DNA from: a virus
Virus record (IMG/VR): IMGVR_UViG_3300013131_000241
Span: 1-24,356 of that record
Length of the DNA stretch: 24,356 nt
Strand: one strand, 5' to 3'
Shown here: in pieces, positions 3,445-19,875 of the stretch
How positions within the stretch are numbered: the stretch's first letter is position 1
Layout of the letters: each line of letters opens with the position of its first letter
Program-made: the position numbers and the translations under genes
Notes under the pieces: generated by a model
Told to the model about the DNA's origin: nothing
Seen by the model: only the letters and a program-made list of their open reading frames with translations
The model's database searches: none

Positions 3445-5973
3445 TTATTGATCGATGCCAGATATGTTTTGAATATCAGTGTTGGTCAATCGTTTTGGCC
3501 AGTAATACAATCTATTTATAGTTCCATTTAGGAAGGCATCCGTGTTATTGCTATTACCAATAGTCAATCGTTTTGGATTACTTATCAATGTCACTGATGC
3601 ATCAGTGGCAACAGTGGATCCATTCACAGAATAAGCACTATCATTTGTTTTATACCCAAATACTGCACTTGACATTGAACCACTTGTAATAACTGTGCTT
3701 GTAAATGAACTTGATGCACCATTTGAAACATTATCAATAGCAATACCCGTCAATGAGTTTGGATAATGTAAAACCATTCTATCGGTAACTGTGCTCAAAC
3801 CTTGTAGTTCAAAAACTCGTGGATATGTTCCGCTTGCAATAACTTTCTTTTTACAAGTAGCAAATAAAGTACCTTCAGGTTGATTGAACCAAGTCCCTAC
3901 ATCAATAGAACACACGTCTGCTTGACGTGTAGTGGCTGCACTTGAAATTACATCTGCTGACCTTGTTGCAGTTGAACCATAAGTAGGAATATAACTGGTC
4001 AAATTACCCATTTCTAACTGACATCCCCATACATAGAAGTTATCAGTTACTGCTCCAACATAACTTGGTGCTCCGGAGACGCCACAAAAATGAAGTCTAA
4101 AATAACGAGACGTATCACTTGATGAATTGAAGGTAATAGTTTGGGAAATACGAAACCAACCATTTCCATAAGGCACTATTGAATATCTTTGTGTTGCGTT
4201 TGCTTGACCAGATAAAACAATAGAACCACTTGCTAAGTCAAAAACCACATATCCATTATTTCCAGTAGTTGGTGATGAATATGAAGAAATACGGACATAT
4301 CGTTGATTTCCCCTTTTGACAAACCAACTTGCTGTCGATGTGTTATTTGACCCAGTTGAAACGACTGCTTCAAAATAATGTTCGACTGATGATGTAGTAT
4401 TGATAGCCAATAAGTCAGCAGTATATGACCCGTCAGGTGCAGGTGCTTGATTTGCAGTGGCAGTACAATTGGTTTTTGTCCAGTAAGCATTATCTATTGC
4501 TTGAGAATAAGTAATAAGATTAGTTGCAGCAGGTTCAGCAAGTACCCCATTATTAACTTTTGAATAAGCATTATAATGAGGTCGAGTTCCACCTGTGGTC
4601 AAAGCAGTTGTAGTAGTCGTTGAATATGTTTGAAGAGGGCCAATGTTTGCTTGAGCACCCCAGATATAAGCACCTGAAGTTCCATTTCCTGTGTAGGTTG
4701 AAGTAGAACCATTATTCAATCGCACTTCAGCAAAATATGAACCGGTATTAGTGGCAGTAAATGATAATGAAACTCTTGACCATCCAAAACCAGCATCTTC
4801 TACTGAATAAAACACCTGTCCAGTATTAAGACCGGATAATTGAAGAGTTGCCGTTTTATTCACTAAATTAACCGGATTGAGTGTGCAGTAGTTTGTTCCA
4901 GTGTAAACCAAGATTGAAAGATTGTTTCTTTCAGCTGATTTTACATAAACCGAGAATGTATAGAATTCACCAGCAACTTGATTGAATGCCTGTTTAACCA
5001 TATGTGGGTTAGTTGTAGTATCTTCAACTAATTTTGTTCCAGTCAATGTTCTATCAGGTGCTAATGTGATATTAGCCAATGAACCAGTTGAACTGAATGC
5101 AAGTAAATTAGTTTTAGTCCAAGCAGCATTAGTAAAGTCTTGAGAATACGTCAGTAAGTTGGTTGGAGTAGTTTTTAGAATACTATCAGTGCTATCAAAA
5201 TATGTAGCTGAACTTGCACGAGAAGTAAAAGTATCAGTGCTTGGAATATAAGTAGTCGCAAATTCACCTTGCTCTAATTGATATCCCCAAACATATAAAC
5301 CTGAAGTTCCGTCCCCGGTATAGGTGTTTGACGTTCCATTATGTAATTGAATGCCACCTGCTCCAGAACCTGAACCTGTCACGGTTGCAGTAGCAGTAAC
5401 TGCTATTTTATACCACCCGTTTCTATAAGCAGTAATTGAATAAGTTGGAGTCCCTAAAAGAACTGAAGCGGTTCCTGCTGATGCGTCAAAAAGGATGTAA
5501 TGACCTGGAGCACCAAAATAAGTTGAGTCCAATCCAAAAATACATTTTGTTCTTTCCCCCGCTTTGACAAAGATACTTGTTGTATATGTCAGTCCCGAAG
5601 TAATTGATGAAACCTGGCTCAACCAATGATTGACAGAAGCAGTTGCAGTTTCGACTATTTTTGTTCCAGTATAAGTTCCATCAGGTGCCAACACCCAATT
5701 TGGAACTATTGACAGATTTCCTTTTGCCCATGCAGCATTGTCAAACTTCTCTGAATAAGTATGAAGATTAGTTCTGCTTTCTTCAATCAACAAACCTTCG
5801 GAGTCACCTGTAACAGTGTCATGTGTAAAACGAGCAGTATTATTAGGTGCATATTGAATATAACCTGAACTATCAACATAAGTAGCAGGTGATGCACGAT
5901 TGAATGTCAATGATTGTGGAAGTCGTTTTGTTCTTCCAAACTCATAAACTAATGTTGGATTGGGTAATGTCAT
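3445..5973 (-). CDS. Putative receptor-binding protein with three carbohydrate-binding-like repeats and LamG-like end
   Basis: This 842-residue protein opens with a segment common in phage fibre and head-spike proteins (FNRASPATYVDSSG, then GLLIEESRTNL, residues 24-70). Three tandem domains of about 180 residues follow at roughly 68-246, 271-450 and 484-664. Each begins TNLxTYSxxxxNAAWxK, has an APDxTxTGTKxVE-like strand (weaker in the third), a GWxRx or GWYKI strand, and ends YxWGxQxExG. These resemble carbohydrate-binding jelly-roll modules. The end (about 685-842) looks like a concanavalin A/LamG-type domain, with a closing INRLYYWPKRLT motif common in that group. It probably binds a surface glycan. 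No hydrolase motif is obvious. SD-like AGGA lies 9 nt before ATG 5973. Function is inferred from domain type and fibre context. Confidence 0.72.
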   Translation of the reverse strand: MTLPNPTLVYEFGRTKRLPQSLTFNRASPATYVDSSGYIQYAPNNTARFTHDTVTGDSEGLLIEESRTNLHTYSEKFDNAAWAKGNLSIVPNWVLAPDGTYTGTKIVETATASVNHWLSQVSSITSGLTYTTSIFVKAGERTKCIFGLDSTYFGAPGHYILFDASAGTASVLLGTPTYSITAYRNGWYKIAVTATATVTGSGSGAGGIQLHNGTSNTYTGDGTSGLYVWGYQLEQGEFATTYIPSTDTFTSRASSATYFDSTDSILKTTPTNLLTYSQDFTNAAWTKTNLLAFSSTGSLANITLAPDRTLTGTKLVEDTTTNPHMVKQAFNQVAGEFYTFSVYVKSAERNNLSILVYTGTNYCTLNPVNLVNKTATLQLSGLNTGQVFYSVEDAGFGWSRVSLSFTATNTGSYFAEVRLNNGSTSTYTGNGTSGAYIWGAQANIGPLQTYSTTTTTALTTGGTRPHYNAYSKVNNGVLAEPAATNLITYSQAIDNAYWTKTNCTATANQAPAPDGSYTADLLAINTTSSVEHYFEAVVSTGSNNTSTASWFVKRGNQRYVRISSYSSPTTGNNGYVVFDLASGSIVLSGQANATQRYSIVPYGNGWFRISQTITFNSSSDTSRYFRLHFCGVSGAPSYVGAVTDNFYVWGCQLEMGNLTSYIPTYGSTATRSADVISSAATTRQADVCSIDVGTWFNQPEGTLFATCKKKVIASGTYPRVFELQGLSTVTDRMVLHYPNSLTGIAIDNVSNGASSSFTSTVITSGSMSSAVFGYKTNDSAYSVNGSTVATDASVTLISNPKRLTIGNSNNTDAFLNGTINRLYYWPKRLTNTDIQNISGIDQ

Positions 5974-12250: not shown

Positions 12251-13885
12251 TTATTTAGAAGTCCTTCTTGATTGACCTGTGTTGGTATTAATAATTGGTT
12301 TGGCGCCACTTGATGACGAAGAAGCATTTGTTGATGCTGTGCCATTTGTAACGCTTGTGTCAATATTATTTGTAATATGAACAACTGGGGCAGGATTATT
12401 TAATATTGATTGTTTATTTAATAAAGGTGATGATTTAGTACTATTTAAGTTATCAACTTGTGATGTATTATTTAACCTTGCAGATAATGAAGCACCAATA
12501 ACCGGAATGCTTGATAATAAATCTGAGAATTTTGTAAGTAACCAACTTTTAAAGGTTTCCCATTTATTTGATATACCAGTTTGGAAATTGATAACTAATT
12601 GACCACCTAAATTAACCCATTCAGTTACCCAATTAGTGATACCCATTACAAAACCAGAAAATAGATTATAAATATAATCCATTCCTATTTTAAAACCTTG
12701 TTTTACATCTTCCCAATTTGTTACAATATATAATAATGCAGCACCTACAGCAGCAATTAATAATCCCAATGGAGAAAATAAAGCAGTTACCGCTGCTAAT
12801 ACTGTTCCCAATCCACTAATTACAGCAGTTAATATAAAAATTGAACCACCAAGGATACCCAGTACAGGTATTGCAATTAATATGGCATTTGTTAAGGTTT
12901 CATGCTGTTTTGCAAAATCAATAAGGGGTTTAAGTAATTTAGTAACTTCAACGCCAATTTTAGGTAAGGCAGTAGTAATTAAATCAAGTTTTTCAGCATA
13001 TAATTGAACAAGTCCAGATTGTTCTGCAAAGTTGATTGAGACACCTGATAACGCATCTCCGACATTTGATTCTTTGCCAGAAATTGTTTTCATATATTCA
13101 TCAGTTGAACCGGCATACTTCTTATTGCCTAACTGAGAAATAAACTTCAGAACATCAGCTGGATTTTTGAATACTGTTTCTTTCCCTGTTGCAACATCAG
13201 TAAGTTTTGTTTTTCCTTTATCAGAACCTGCTTTTAGTCCAAACTTTTTGAATAAATCGACATCATTACCACCAGCACCCGCTTGAAGTGCCCGAATGAA
13301 CTCCCCATCGAACTTTTCACCTATTGCAGAAGAGATATTCGTAAAACCTTTGAGTAAGTCGAATGAACCTTCTAACCCAAAGTTTTTGGTCATCGCCCTT
13401 GCTTCAGCAAAGTCTTGAACAGCACCTGGAAGTCGTGTTGCCATATCTTGAGTTTTTGCAAACTCTGCTTCGCCTAACTTTGCTTTTTCTTCAGAGGATT
13501 TACCTTGCCCGTAAAGGGTTCCAAAACGAGTAACGACGGATTGTTTTTCTCGTAAAGGGTCAAGTCCTTTATAGACTGCATATCCAGCACCTGCACCGGC
13601 TGCTCCAATACCTGCAGCAGTTTGTCCAAGGTCTTTTATATGACCGCCGATGTTTTTGATTTGAAACTTCAGTCTATTGAAGTTGATATTGTTGAACGCA
13701 GACCTTATTTTTGATACAGCAGATTGAGCAGCAGTTGCAGTTGAATGAAATGCGGTGTTAGCTGAAGAGGAAGCAGTTTTAGTCGCTTGTGCAAACTGAC
13801 TAATTGACTGCGTCATTTGTTTAACTGGAGCAGACAACTTATTGACTGCTGTAAATACTGCTGATATGTTAAAGGATCTTGCCAT
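12251..13885 (-). CDS. Tail tape measure protein
   Basis: This 544-residue protein has tape measure features: an N-terminal Ser/Ala/Gln-rich helical region (residues 20-65), a glycine/alanine hydrophobic stretch (86-106), a long helical middle, and a strongly hydrophobic segment at about 331-390 able to span a membrane two or three times, followed by an amphipathic part and a Ser/Asn-rich end. Tape measures fix tail length and enter the host membrane during DNA injection. At 544 residues it predicts a fairly short contractile tail, shorter than that of Mu. The ATG (13883-13885) overlaps the stop of the frameshift product as TAATG, and AAGGA lies 6 nt upstream. Confidence 0.88.
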   Translation of the reverse strand: MARSFNISAVFTAVNKLSAPVKQMTQSISQFAQATKTASSSANTAFHSTATAAQSAVSKIRSAFNNINFNRLKFQIKNIGGHIKDLGQTAAGIGAAGAGAGYAVYKGLDPLREKQSVVTRFGTLYGQGKSSEEKAKLGEAEFAKTQDMATRLPGAVQDFAEARAMTKNFGLEGSFDLLKGFTNISSAIGEKFDGEFIRALQAGAGGNDVDLFKKFGLKAGSDKGKTKLTDVATGKETVFKNPADVLKFISQLGNKKYAGSTDEYMKTISGKESNVGDALSGVSINFAEQSGLVQLYAEKLDLITTALPKIGVEVTKLLKPLIDFAKQHETLTNAILIAIPVLGILGGSIFILTAVISGLGTVLAAVTALFSPLGLLIAAVGAALLYIVTNWEDVKQGFKIGMDYIYNLFSGFVMGITNWVTEWVNLGGQLVINFQTGISNKWETFKSWLLTKFSDLLSSIPVIGASLSARLNNTSQVDNLNSTKSSPLLNKQSILNNPAPVVHITNNIDTSVTNGTASTNASSSSSGAKPIINTNTGQSRRTSK

Positions 13886-14342
13886 TATATGTCCTTATTT
13901 TCTATCTCCGATATGCGTTGTGCTTGAGTCATGAATAATTCAATTTCCTCGGCAGTAGAGTTTAATAATTCGTCCTTTCCCCACCCCCAAAAACGGGCAA
14001 CATCAAAACAGTTATTAGTTACTGTTCCGGTGTCTGTGTCGAGGGGATGACAAAATCCAAAAAACTACTGAGTTCTCCGGCAATTTCAAATGCTATTTCT
14101 GGTTCAAGCATTTCAATTTCTATATCATTTAAATTTGCCATTTTGCGTAACATTCGCTGAACAACTTCAATTTCTGAAGGATTTCGCCAAATTACTTCAA
14201 GTGACTTGGAGAATGGATTTTTTTCTGCTATTGGTTTACCAAAAGCAACAAAATCTTTAAAAGTGGGTTTTGTGATATTTAAGGTTGTGGTTAGATTTCC
14301 ATCAACCAAAATAGGTTTAGATATTTTAATAGTATCTGTCAT
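13885..14342 (-). CDS. Tail assembly chaperone, -1 frameshift fusion product (gp41-gp42-like)
   Basis: Reading 95 codons of the gp41-like gene from 14342 and shifting -1 at the heptamer at 14058-14064 enters a frame open for 57 more codons, to TAA at 13885-13887. The extra segment starts GFCHPLDTD and contains ARFWGWGKDELLNSTAEEI; the Trp-rich start and acidic helical tail resemble the C-terminal part of longer tail assembly chaperones such as P2 gpE'. The total is about 152 residues. In the -1 frame a TAG stands just upstream of the heptamer, so the extension has little reach beyond the slip site and no start codon at its beginning. The stop overlaps the tape measure ATG. The frame was worked out base by base; the shifting itself is inferred. 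Confidence 0.85.
14019..14342 (-). CDS. Tail assembly chaperone, Mu gp41-like (unshifted product)
   Basis: This 107-residue protein matches the Mu gp41 type of tail assembly chaperone: opening strands ending in PILVDGNLTTTLNITKPTFKDFVAFGKP, then an acidic helical segment with MAGL-like repeats of Leu/Ile (RMLRKMANLNDIEIEMLEPEIAFEIAGELSSFL). Such proteins coat the tape measure during tube assembly and are absent from mature virions. Its place between tube and tape measure genes is diagnostic. The last dozen codons overlap the -1 frame used by the fusion product. AGGA lies about 10 nt before the start. Confidence 0.87.
   Translation of the reverse strand: MTDTIKISKPILVDGNLTTTLNITKPTFKDFVAFGKPIAEKNPFSKSLEVIWRNPSEIEVVQRMLRKMANLNDIEIEMLEPEIAFEIAGELSSFLDFVIPSTQTPEQ
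14058..14064 (-). promoter_or_regulatory. TTTTTTG slippery heptamer for -1 frameshifting
   Basis: On the minus strand the gp41 frame reads AGT TTT TTG GAT, giving T TTT TTG, which fits X XXY YYZ; both tRNAs can re-pair after a -1 slip. The same heptamer is used for the chaperone frameshift in phage P2 (established knowledge). A -1-frame TAG lies immediately 5' of it, so the heptamer is the first place where a shift can enter the downstream frame. Confidence 0.85.
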
Positions 14343-14422: not shown

Positions 14423-14788
14423 TTATAACCAGGTTCCATCACCGCTAAATTCAAAGTCGAAAGTACCTTCTTTCGTGCTGATTTTACCGTCACCAGTATA
14501 ACCCGCTCTTGATAGTACGAAAGTGGTTCCATTCGCCAATTGAATGGTAATAGAAACATTTGTTGCAAGAACTAAAGGTTCTGGATCAAACCCTGGATTG
14601 GTTGTAATAGAACCAGATACTTTATCGAATTCAGGTTGCTCTGAATAAGTATTTGTGCCATCTGATGCTTTTTGAAATTCCCTTTTAACACCACCTAAGT
14701 AAGTAATATCAAAGTTACCATCCGCTGGTTGTGAATAATTCACCCCGTCGATTTTGAAGTGGGCGACACCTCTTACTAATTTTGCCAT
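14423..14788 (-). CDS. Tail tube protein, Mu gpM-like
   Basis: This 121-residue protein is the Mu gpM-type tail tube protein, which stacks in rings to make the inner channel. The opening (VRGVAHFKIDGVNYSQPADGNFDITYLGGVKRE) and the closing GYTGDGKISTKEGTFDFEFSG are family-typical, as is the small all-beta composition. The gene directly follows the sheath gene (3 nt gap), as in Mu, and its length is close to Mu gpM. A hairpin lies downstream. Confidence 0.92.
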   Translation of the reverse strand: MAKLVRGVAHFKIDGVNYSQPADGNFDITYLGGVKREFQKASDGTNTYSEQPEFDKVSGSITTNPGFDPEPLVLATNVSITIQLANGTTFVLSRAGYTGDGKISTKEGTFDFEFSGDGTWL

Positions 14789-14791
14789 TTA

Positions 14792-16273
14792 TTATGCTCC
14801 TGTGTTCAAATAGAACTCTGTTTTAATTGCTATAACTCGAAGGTTATTCACAAGATAAGGTGCGAATAGGATATTCACGCGATTTGGATCATTCCCGTCA
14901 AGTTCTACAAATGATTTTTCTTTGAACTTTTTCATTTCTTGAACCAATCCATCTCTTTCCCATTCTGCATATTGAGCAACCAATTCTGCGAATATGTCTT
15001 TAGGCGTAACAACTGCTTGACCGAAACCGAACTTTGTTCCGTCTGCAGCAAGTTTCATTCGCGGAAATTTTTGAGTAAAACGATATGTCAATGCTTTTTG
15101 CAAATATGCCAACGTGGTTAAGGTTTCTACATCCAAATACGATGGGTCTGCTTGTGAGTATGAGTTCTTCTGATAAGTCGTAATAGAACGTTCAATTTGA
15201 ACAGCAGATACGTTATATTTCAGAGTGGCAATGCCATTCCAAAGAAGAATATTACGCGTAGTTGAAGTAAATCTATCTGCTTCTTTTGCTGCAATAATTC
15301 CTTGAAGAACCAAAGTTTGAACAGTTCTTGCTGGGTCATTATTTAGTGCGTTCGATACTTGACCCAAGATTGCTCCAATTACATCAGTTGATGCATTTGG
15401 TACGCCGGTTTCATATCCAAACAATGATTGATGTTGGTCGTTAATTGCATTCCCAAGTGTTACCAGAGCACTTGATGTATCTGCTTTGCAAGTCCAGGCG
15501 TGACCATACTGGGCCTTCAATGGACTCCAACGACCAGTTGTATCATTTAGGAATGCTGTCAGAGCGGCAATATTCGAAGTATCAGCATAAGGATGACCAT
15601 AAAACATAAATTCTTGGTCACCTAATAATGATAATTTAGAACTAAATGATGGGTCAGTTGCACCGGCAGTGCCAGCAGCAATAGCCACTGTCACACCAGC
15701 AGGTAAAACTTCATTCGCCAATTTTCCACGGAAATTCAGGACGACAGGAATTGATGTTCCTAATGTACCTTTATTCTTAGCAGTGATAGTTACTACACCA
15801 AGTGCTGAAGTCGCTGTAAACGGAGCATCTTTGGCAGCAGTAATAGCAGCAACAGTTGCAGCCGCTTGAGTGGTTGGAGAATCTCCTATTACAACTGGAA
15901 CATTAACTACTTCACCGCCCAAATAAAATGCATGGGTGCCAGAACCTGTAGCGGTTCCAGTGAAAGTAATAGTTTTAGTCGCTGCAGTTGCGCCTGATAC
16001 GTCATTTAGTGGAAGAACCCACAATTCGGTAAAGTCGTTATTGAGTTTGAAGAATTGAACCATTCTTGCAAGTTGGGAACCAGTGCCATAAAGTGACTTG
16101 GCCTGATCTGCACTTGTTATAAGAGTTGGTTCCTCAGTAATTGCGTTGATTGATTGGCCGAAAAGTAGCGCACGAGAGTTTTCAACGAAATAACCTGCTT
16201 TTTCGTTAGAGAACTCACCAAATACTAACGGAATACGTAAGTTTTTTGAAATGTTGATGAAAGATATTGCCAT
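14792..16273 (-). CDS. Tail sheath protein, Mu gpL-like
   Basis: This 493-residue protein is a contractile sheath subunit of the Mu gpL type. Diagnostic parts are the N-terminal FGQSINAITEEPTLITSADQAKSLYG-like segment (about 37-63), the middle domain with ATKTITFTGTATGSGTHAFYLGGE, and a C-terminal region with SYLDVETLTTLAYLQKALTYRFTQKFPRMKLA (near 375-405) that forms the conserved core. It defines the virus as a myovirus. It starts 2 nt after the DUF2635 gene and precedes the tube gene. Length equals the usual 480-500 residues of the family. Confidence 0.95.
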   Translation of the reverse strand: MAISFINISKNLRIPLVFGEFSNEKAGYFVENSRALLFGQSINAITEEPTLITSADQAKSLYGTGSQLARMVQFFKLNNDFTELWVLPLNDVSGATAATKTITFTGTATGSGTHAFYLGGEVVNVPVVIGDSPTTQAAATVAAITAAKDAPFTATSALGVVTITAKNKGTLGTSIPVVLNFRGKLANEVLPAGVTVAIAAGTAGATDPSFSSKLSLLGDQEFMFYGHPYADTSNIAALTAFLNDTTGRWSPLKAQYGHAWTCKADTSSALVTLGNAINDQHQSLFGYETGVPNASTDVIGAILGQVSNALNNDPARTVQTLVLQGIIAAKEADRFTSTTRNILLWNGIATLKYNVSAVQIERSITTYQKNSYSQADPSYLDVETLTTLAYLQKALTYRFTQKFPRMKLAADGTKFGFGQAVVTPKDIFAELVAQYAEWERDGLVQEMKKFKEKSFVELDGNDPNRVNILFAPYLVNNLRVIAIKTEFYLNTGA

Positions 16274-19275: not shown

Positions 19276-19283
19276 TATTTATA
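19276..19283 (-). promoter_or_regulatory. TATAAATA box before the capsid gene, tentative
   Basis: The minus strand reads TATAAATA across the last codons of the endonuclease gene, 19 bp before the capsid-fusion start at 19256. A T4-like late promoter here would allow capsid expression independent of upstream genes. AT-rich context makes chance likely. Confidence 0.3.
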
Positions 19284-19875
19284 ATAATTTATGTTTACAA
19301 TTTTCGCCGTGCCATCTCGTATAATTTCTATAGTCAATAGATTTATTACAATAAGGACATATATTTTTTTTTGGAATTTCACCTACATTCCAGGGTATAA
19401 TTCCAAATCTTGCTTCTCTCATTTTATTTAAGGTTTCTTCGGAATAGATATCTGTTTTCCCTGAATTCCATGCTGGTTTATTTGTTTTAACCCCTTTATT
19501 CCAAGGTATTTGACCTTTATGGATTTTACTAAATTGTGATTTAGTCGCGTCCGTATGAGTTTTCCCTCTTCGATTCCATTTTTTTGTTGAATGATGATTA
19601 TAAAGAACACCTGATTTCAAATACATTTCAATCATTTCGTCTTCCAACTTTTCTACTTCATCATCTGTTCCTTCAAAAACAATTTCCCATTCAATTTCGT
19701 TGAATATTGGTTTTACTTCTTTTGAACTGGTTTTATATTTCTTTCCGAAATCTTGTTCAGCAGTTCTATTTAATTTTACATTTGCCCATCGAGCACCAAC
19801 ATATATTTTGTCAGTTGTTGGATGATATCCAAGATAAACATATGCTTTTGGTTCTTTATAAATAATATCAGTCAT
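19279..19875 (-). CDS. Free-standing GIY-YIG homing endonuclease with NUMOD3 motifs
   Basis: This 198-residue protein carries a divergent GIY-YIG nuclease domain at about residues 10-95: AYVYLGYHP in place of GIY, KIYVGAR in place of YIG with Arg29, a helix with Glu (VEKLEDEMIEMY, residues 75-85) and LYNHH with Asn93. NUMOD3-like DNA-binding repeats follow (GKTHTDATKSQFSKIHKGQ, PWNKGVKTNKPAWNSGKT, about 104-141), and a C-terminal zinc finger CPYC...WHGENCKH at 173-195. Such genes are selfish elements that cut DNA lacking them and spread by repair. It interrupts the usual portal-to-protease order. GAGGT precedes the start, and a hairpin lies between it and the portal gene. No intron is evident, since both neighbours look intact. 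Confidence 0.85.
   Translation of the reverse strand: MTDIIYKEPKAYVYLGYHPTTDKIYVGARWANVKLNRTAEQDFGKKYKTSSKEVKPIFNEIEWEIVFEGTDDEVEKLEDEMIEMYLKSGVLYNHHSTKKWNRRGKTHTDATKSQFSKIHKGQIPWNKGVKTNKPAWNSGKTDIYSEETLNKMREARFGIIPWNVGEIPKKNICPYCNKSIDYRNYTRWHGENCKHKLL

Follow-up and report, generated by a model that had tools for sequence, protein, structure and literature searches.

A P2-type programmed -1 frameshift predicted in the tail chaperone gene of a Mu-type contractile tail module

The slippery site of phage lambda is G_GGA_AAG, unlike the one considered here. Lambda supplies the functional model for a short and a long tail assembly chaperone (gpG and gpGT) acting with the tape measure protein (PMC5009743), and the same work gives frameshift efficiencies in P2 and related phages that are two to three times that of lambda, as well as a -2 frameshift for phage Mu. 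In P2, the corresponding pair is E and E+E' (Christie et al. 2002, as cited in PMC3931495), and the Pfam description of the chaperone family TAC_7 (PF10109) covers E, 41 or 14.

Here we analyzed a 24,356-nt stretch of a viral genome (IMG/VR record IMGVR_UViG_3300013131_000241, hereafter the window), which very probably encodes a P2 E/E+E'-type programmed -1 frameshift within a Mu-type contractile tail module, as judged by sequence comparison. The genes follow one another as sheath, tube, chaperone, tape measure, and DNA circularisation-like protein, with the following features:

14792..16273, minus strand: contractile tail sheath protein (phrog_165, E=7e-164), the basis of the comparative panel and tree
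14423..14788, minus strand: tail tube protein (PF10618, E=7e-21)
14342..14019, minus strand: tail assembly chaperone (TAC), 0-frame product of the Mu gp41 / P2 E type, 107 aa, ATG to TAA
14075..14078, minus strand: GGAG, Shine-Dalgarno-like and a possible stimulator, ~10 nt upstream of the heptamer
14064-14058, minus strand: slippery heptamer T_TTT_TTG in the chaperone frame, kept in relatives L005 and L006 and identical in P2
14058..13885, minus strand: -1 frame extension, 57 codons plus TAA, its stop overlapping the tape measure start
14342..13885, minus strand: predicted frameshift fusion (inferred), 152 aa (95 aa + 57 aa)
12251..13885, minus strand: tail tape measure protein, 544 aa (phrog_28, E=6e-16)

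Elsewhere in the window, a 198-aa open reading frame between the portal and capsid genes (19279-19875, minus strand) resembles, by eye, a homing endonuclease of the GIY-YIG or HNH type.

Between the tail tube and tape measure genes, a second frame is open across the end of the chaperone gene. The original prediction had placed T TTT TTG in the gp41-like frame and had described a -1 shift opening a 57-codon frame with a Trp-rich motif and no start codon of its own, and all of this was borne out: the first T of the heptamer occupies the third position of a codon in the 0 frame (AGT TTT TTG), fitting the X_XXY_YYZ phase, and the -1 frame runs from GGA (14058) to the TAA at 13887-13885 through a FWGWG motif, with no ATG, GTG or TTG in the extension ahead of an internal ATG at 13932. 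The frame ends in a TAATG junction, where the extension TAA and the tape measure ATG (13885) share one base. The "gp42-like" label given to the extension is a misnomer, since the Mu record uses gp42 for the tape measure. A -1-frame TAG does lie at 14067-14065, immediately 5' of the heptamer, but the suggestion that it bounds the usable region for the shift did not hold, as this TAG is missing from L005, L006, and most other relatives, and is thus incidental. In the window, the -2/+1 frame closes 129 nt short of the tape measure start, and the two nearest relatives likewise have a closed -2 frame. The window thus does not show the Mu-type arrangement, in which GGGGGCGA is combined with an extension that runs to the tape measure in the -2 frame. 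Profile searches linked the 0-frame product to phrog_166 (E=1.5e-5) and to PF10109 Phage_TAC_7 (E=2e-4, with 21.7 bits falling under the 25-bit gathering cut-off), and the extension to phrog_32181 (E=5e-5) and phrog_10636 (E=0.002). The PF06528 Phage_P2_GpE profile, which matches 3 of 20 panel members, did not match the window extension.

We infer ribosome slippage, its efficiency, and the functions of both products along the following lines. The majority of ribosomes would complete the 107-aa chaperone, while a minority would slip at T_TTT_TTG, the P-site TTT and A-site TTG re-pairing one base back as TTT TTT, and would then append 57 residues before stopping at the tape measure start. By analogy to lambda gpG/gpGT, the short and long forms may both bind the tape measure protein, with the extension recruiting tail tube subunits and both chaperone forms then leaving. 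Given the efficiencies reported for P2 and its relatives (PMC5009743), a modestly frequent shift is therefore expected in the window phage.

P2 is among the closest known systems, with an identical T_TTT_TTG, an equal codon phase, an annotated -1 frameshift, and an extension that lacks a usual start of its own and reaches the tape measure start, as the original prediction had stated for the heptamer. The chaperone and extension sequences of P2 are, however, very divergent from those of the window, whose sheath falls within the Mu-type family (phrog_165). In favor of a P2-type extension, the extension profile aligned weakly to P2 E' with hhalign (37 columns, E 8e-5, probability 61%). Mu gp41 shares the gene position and the sheath family with the window chaperone, but it is extended in the -2 frame, at GGGGGCGA, and its -1 frame is closed, in agreement with the original prediction, which noted that Mu has been proposed to shift differently. 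SfV orf13, ST64B sb15, and prophages of the P. syringae group belong to the window's sheath clade and carry an in-frame T_TTT_TTN with -1 extensions sharing the FW...P...QA.RI pattern of the window, although their Z base is C or T where the window has G; the extension is unannotated in the SfV and ST64B phage records.

The two closest relatives retain this organization. In L005, the chaperone is 78% identical to that of the window, the heptamer is identical, and the extension (58 codons) is 59% identical, while L006 encodes a 100-aa chaperone barely detected by BLAST with that of the window and still has T_TTT_TTG in phase, its -1 extension stopping 6 nt ahead of the tape measure start. Beyond the chaperone stop, substitutions between the window and L005 are distributed 12/5/23 over the -1-frame codon positions, and dN/dS for this one pair of sequences is 0.055 when read in the -1 frame, against 1.4 and 2.9 for the remaining frames; as synonymous sites are near saturation, the ratio is approximate. 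By these measures, the extension is under purifying selection, evolving in a codon-like manner in the -1 frame only.

For a wider comparison, a panel was built from sheath homologues, and the tube-to-tape stretch was read in 20 phage records and 19 genome loci, with four more distant phages and P2 added later. The genome loci came from a sheath search of genome contigs, in which a single sequence found 0 loci and an alignment found 19; tblastn of the fusion against phage records returned just one weak match. In the panel, 17 representative rows, some of them from high-GC phages, combine an in-frame T_TTT_TTN in the overlap with an extension that runs in the -1 frame to the start of the tape measure gene. 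This arrangement occurs in the window group, Pseudomonas prophages, SfV, EPP-1, AH07, ST64B, PG1, DVM-2008, BgVeeders33, phiNP, BZS1, PBb002, and YPCBV-1. PPF1 likewise has T_TTT_TTT with a -1 extension, and other heptamers occur in phiKM1 (G_GGT_TTT) and in ST405-phi1.1, SuMu, and 3927AP2 (A_AAA_AAG). This comparative evidence supports the P2-like solution that had been proposed for a Mu-like tail, and a -1 solution of this kind is common in the window's sheath clade rather than special to the window phage. Four families with no listed function (phrog_32181, phrog_11318, phrog_10636, and phrog_12783) have matches among the extension peptides of the panel, and probably represent tail chaperone extensions produced by frameshifting.

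Joint conservation of heptamer and downstream frame, by which the original prediction was to be judged, was thus found in L005, L006, and the wider panel but not in Paraburkholderia phage IPK, an exception that counts against the frameshift reading. This phage has the closest named sheath to that of the window and an extension-like frame (VFDLAHFWNVSPAHIMALPM, at 4600-4860 of L034) without a reachable heptamer; its record is marked UNVERIFIED, and either re-initiation at a GTG or a sequence error is possible. The GTG lies early in the IPK extension frame, as would suit an alternative in which a small gene of its own encodes the extension and is translated by re-initiation or coupling past the chaperone stop, without any frameshift, and a separate open reading frame is indeed annotated at the extension in some records (YPCBV1_00042 and SuMu gp41). 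We nevertheless consider this alternative very improbable for the window, where the first candidate start codon of the extension falls beyond the conserved DVARFWGW motif, and where heptamer and dual-coding stretch belong to an arrangement maintained across lineages.

Taken in one sequence, the window heptamer is suggestive only, and weak evidence for a frameshift, because in-frame slippery heptamers are not rare in this AT-rich DNA. While T_TTT_TTG occurs in frame a single time among the 7,751 codons of the window (37% GC), 35 in-frame heptamers of the X_XXA_AAZ/X_XXT_TTZ types are found within these same codons, and the probability that the final 40 codons of the TAC gene hold a T_TTT_TTN, given protein and codon usage, is a non-significant 0.15. 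In GC-rich panel members, codon choice makes such a heptamer very unlikely, with the same probability at 0.0001 in YPCBV-1, 0.003 in PG1, and 0.007 in PBb002. Although base composition and the value of 0.15 for the window would allow a chance T-run, and although polymerase slippage can arise on T-runs, a fortuitous heptamer or a transition arising from transcriptional slippage at the six T is the least probable reading, as the same site is present in GC-rich phages, six T are short for transcriptional slippage (T runs longer than 8 are given in PMC3711429), and the T6 phase suits tandem tRNA slippage in all -1 T6 relatives, albeit in a scan that itself demanded that phase. Overall, the case for a programmed -1 frameshift is carried by conservation, with the homologues making the heptamer non-random.

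We also considered possible stimulators near the heptamer. The window has a predicted RNA fold downstream of the heptamer (z -2.8) with no counterpart in L005 (z +0.9) or L006 (z 0.0), and a conserved downstream stimulatory fold was rejected accordingly; SfV, PG1, and P2 have downstream folds of their own. The GGAG upstream of the heptamer ranks 3rd of 86 in-gene windows, with comparable ranks for Shine-Dalgarno-like sequences in some relatives but not all, which is suggestive only of a stimulatory role.

Nine panel members use the -2 frame instead, namely Mu, Pmp9, B23, MuM16-2, martha, Kp4866, two Actinobacillus prophages, and a Roseospirillum locus (labels L024, L026, L028, L032, L043, L045, L046, L047, and L050). 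All nine carry GGGGGCGA without variation, always in the same phase, and have their extension in the -2 frame; a literature search on this sequence found nothing. The sheath tree requires the shift direction to have changed at least three times. The sheaths of B23 (-2) and YPCBV-1 (-1) are strongly supported sisters with 56% identity, and their tubes are 43% identical, whereas BLAST shows no relation between their chaperones or between their tape measures, and the B23 chaperone is 44% identical to that of Mu. As a hypothesis, the recoding mode therefore seems to move together with chaperone and tape measure and not with the sheath, a mildly new observation. There is, in our estimate, an even chance that this one sheath family switched repeatedly between -1 (T_TTT_TTN or A_AAA_AAG) and -2 (GGGGGCGA) through cassette exchange of chaperone, recoding signal, and tape measure, with sheath and tube staying in place, a scenario based on one clear pair (B23/YPCBV-1). 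Burkholderia phage KS10 (L053) is reported to have no tail frameshift (PMC2628397). At 4834-5073 of this genome, the +1/-2 frame is open over a 185-nt overlap, and its extension-like peptide product (LQNWETLARQLSLALRCSLTSLREM...) would stop where the tape measure gene starts; no known slippery site was seen.

Taken together, the window would provide a further clean case of conserved phage recoding, of a kind already known in tailed phages, in a frameshift that is unannotated as such in the Mu-type panel records opened. The occurrence of -1 and -2 shifts inside one sheath family may offer a natural comparison for the co-exchange of recoding signals and the proteins they serve.
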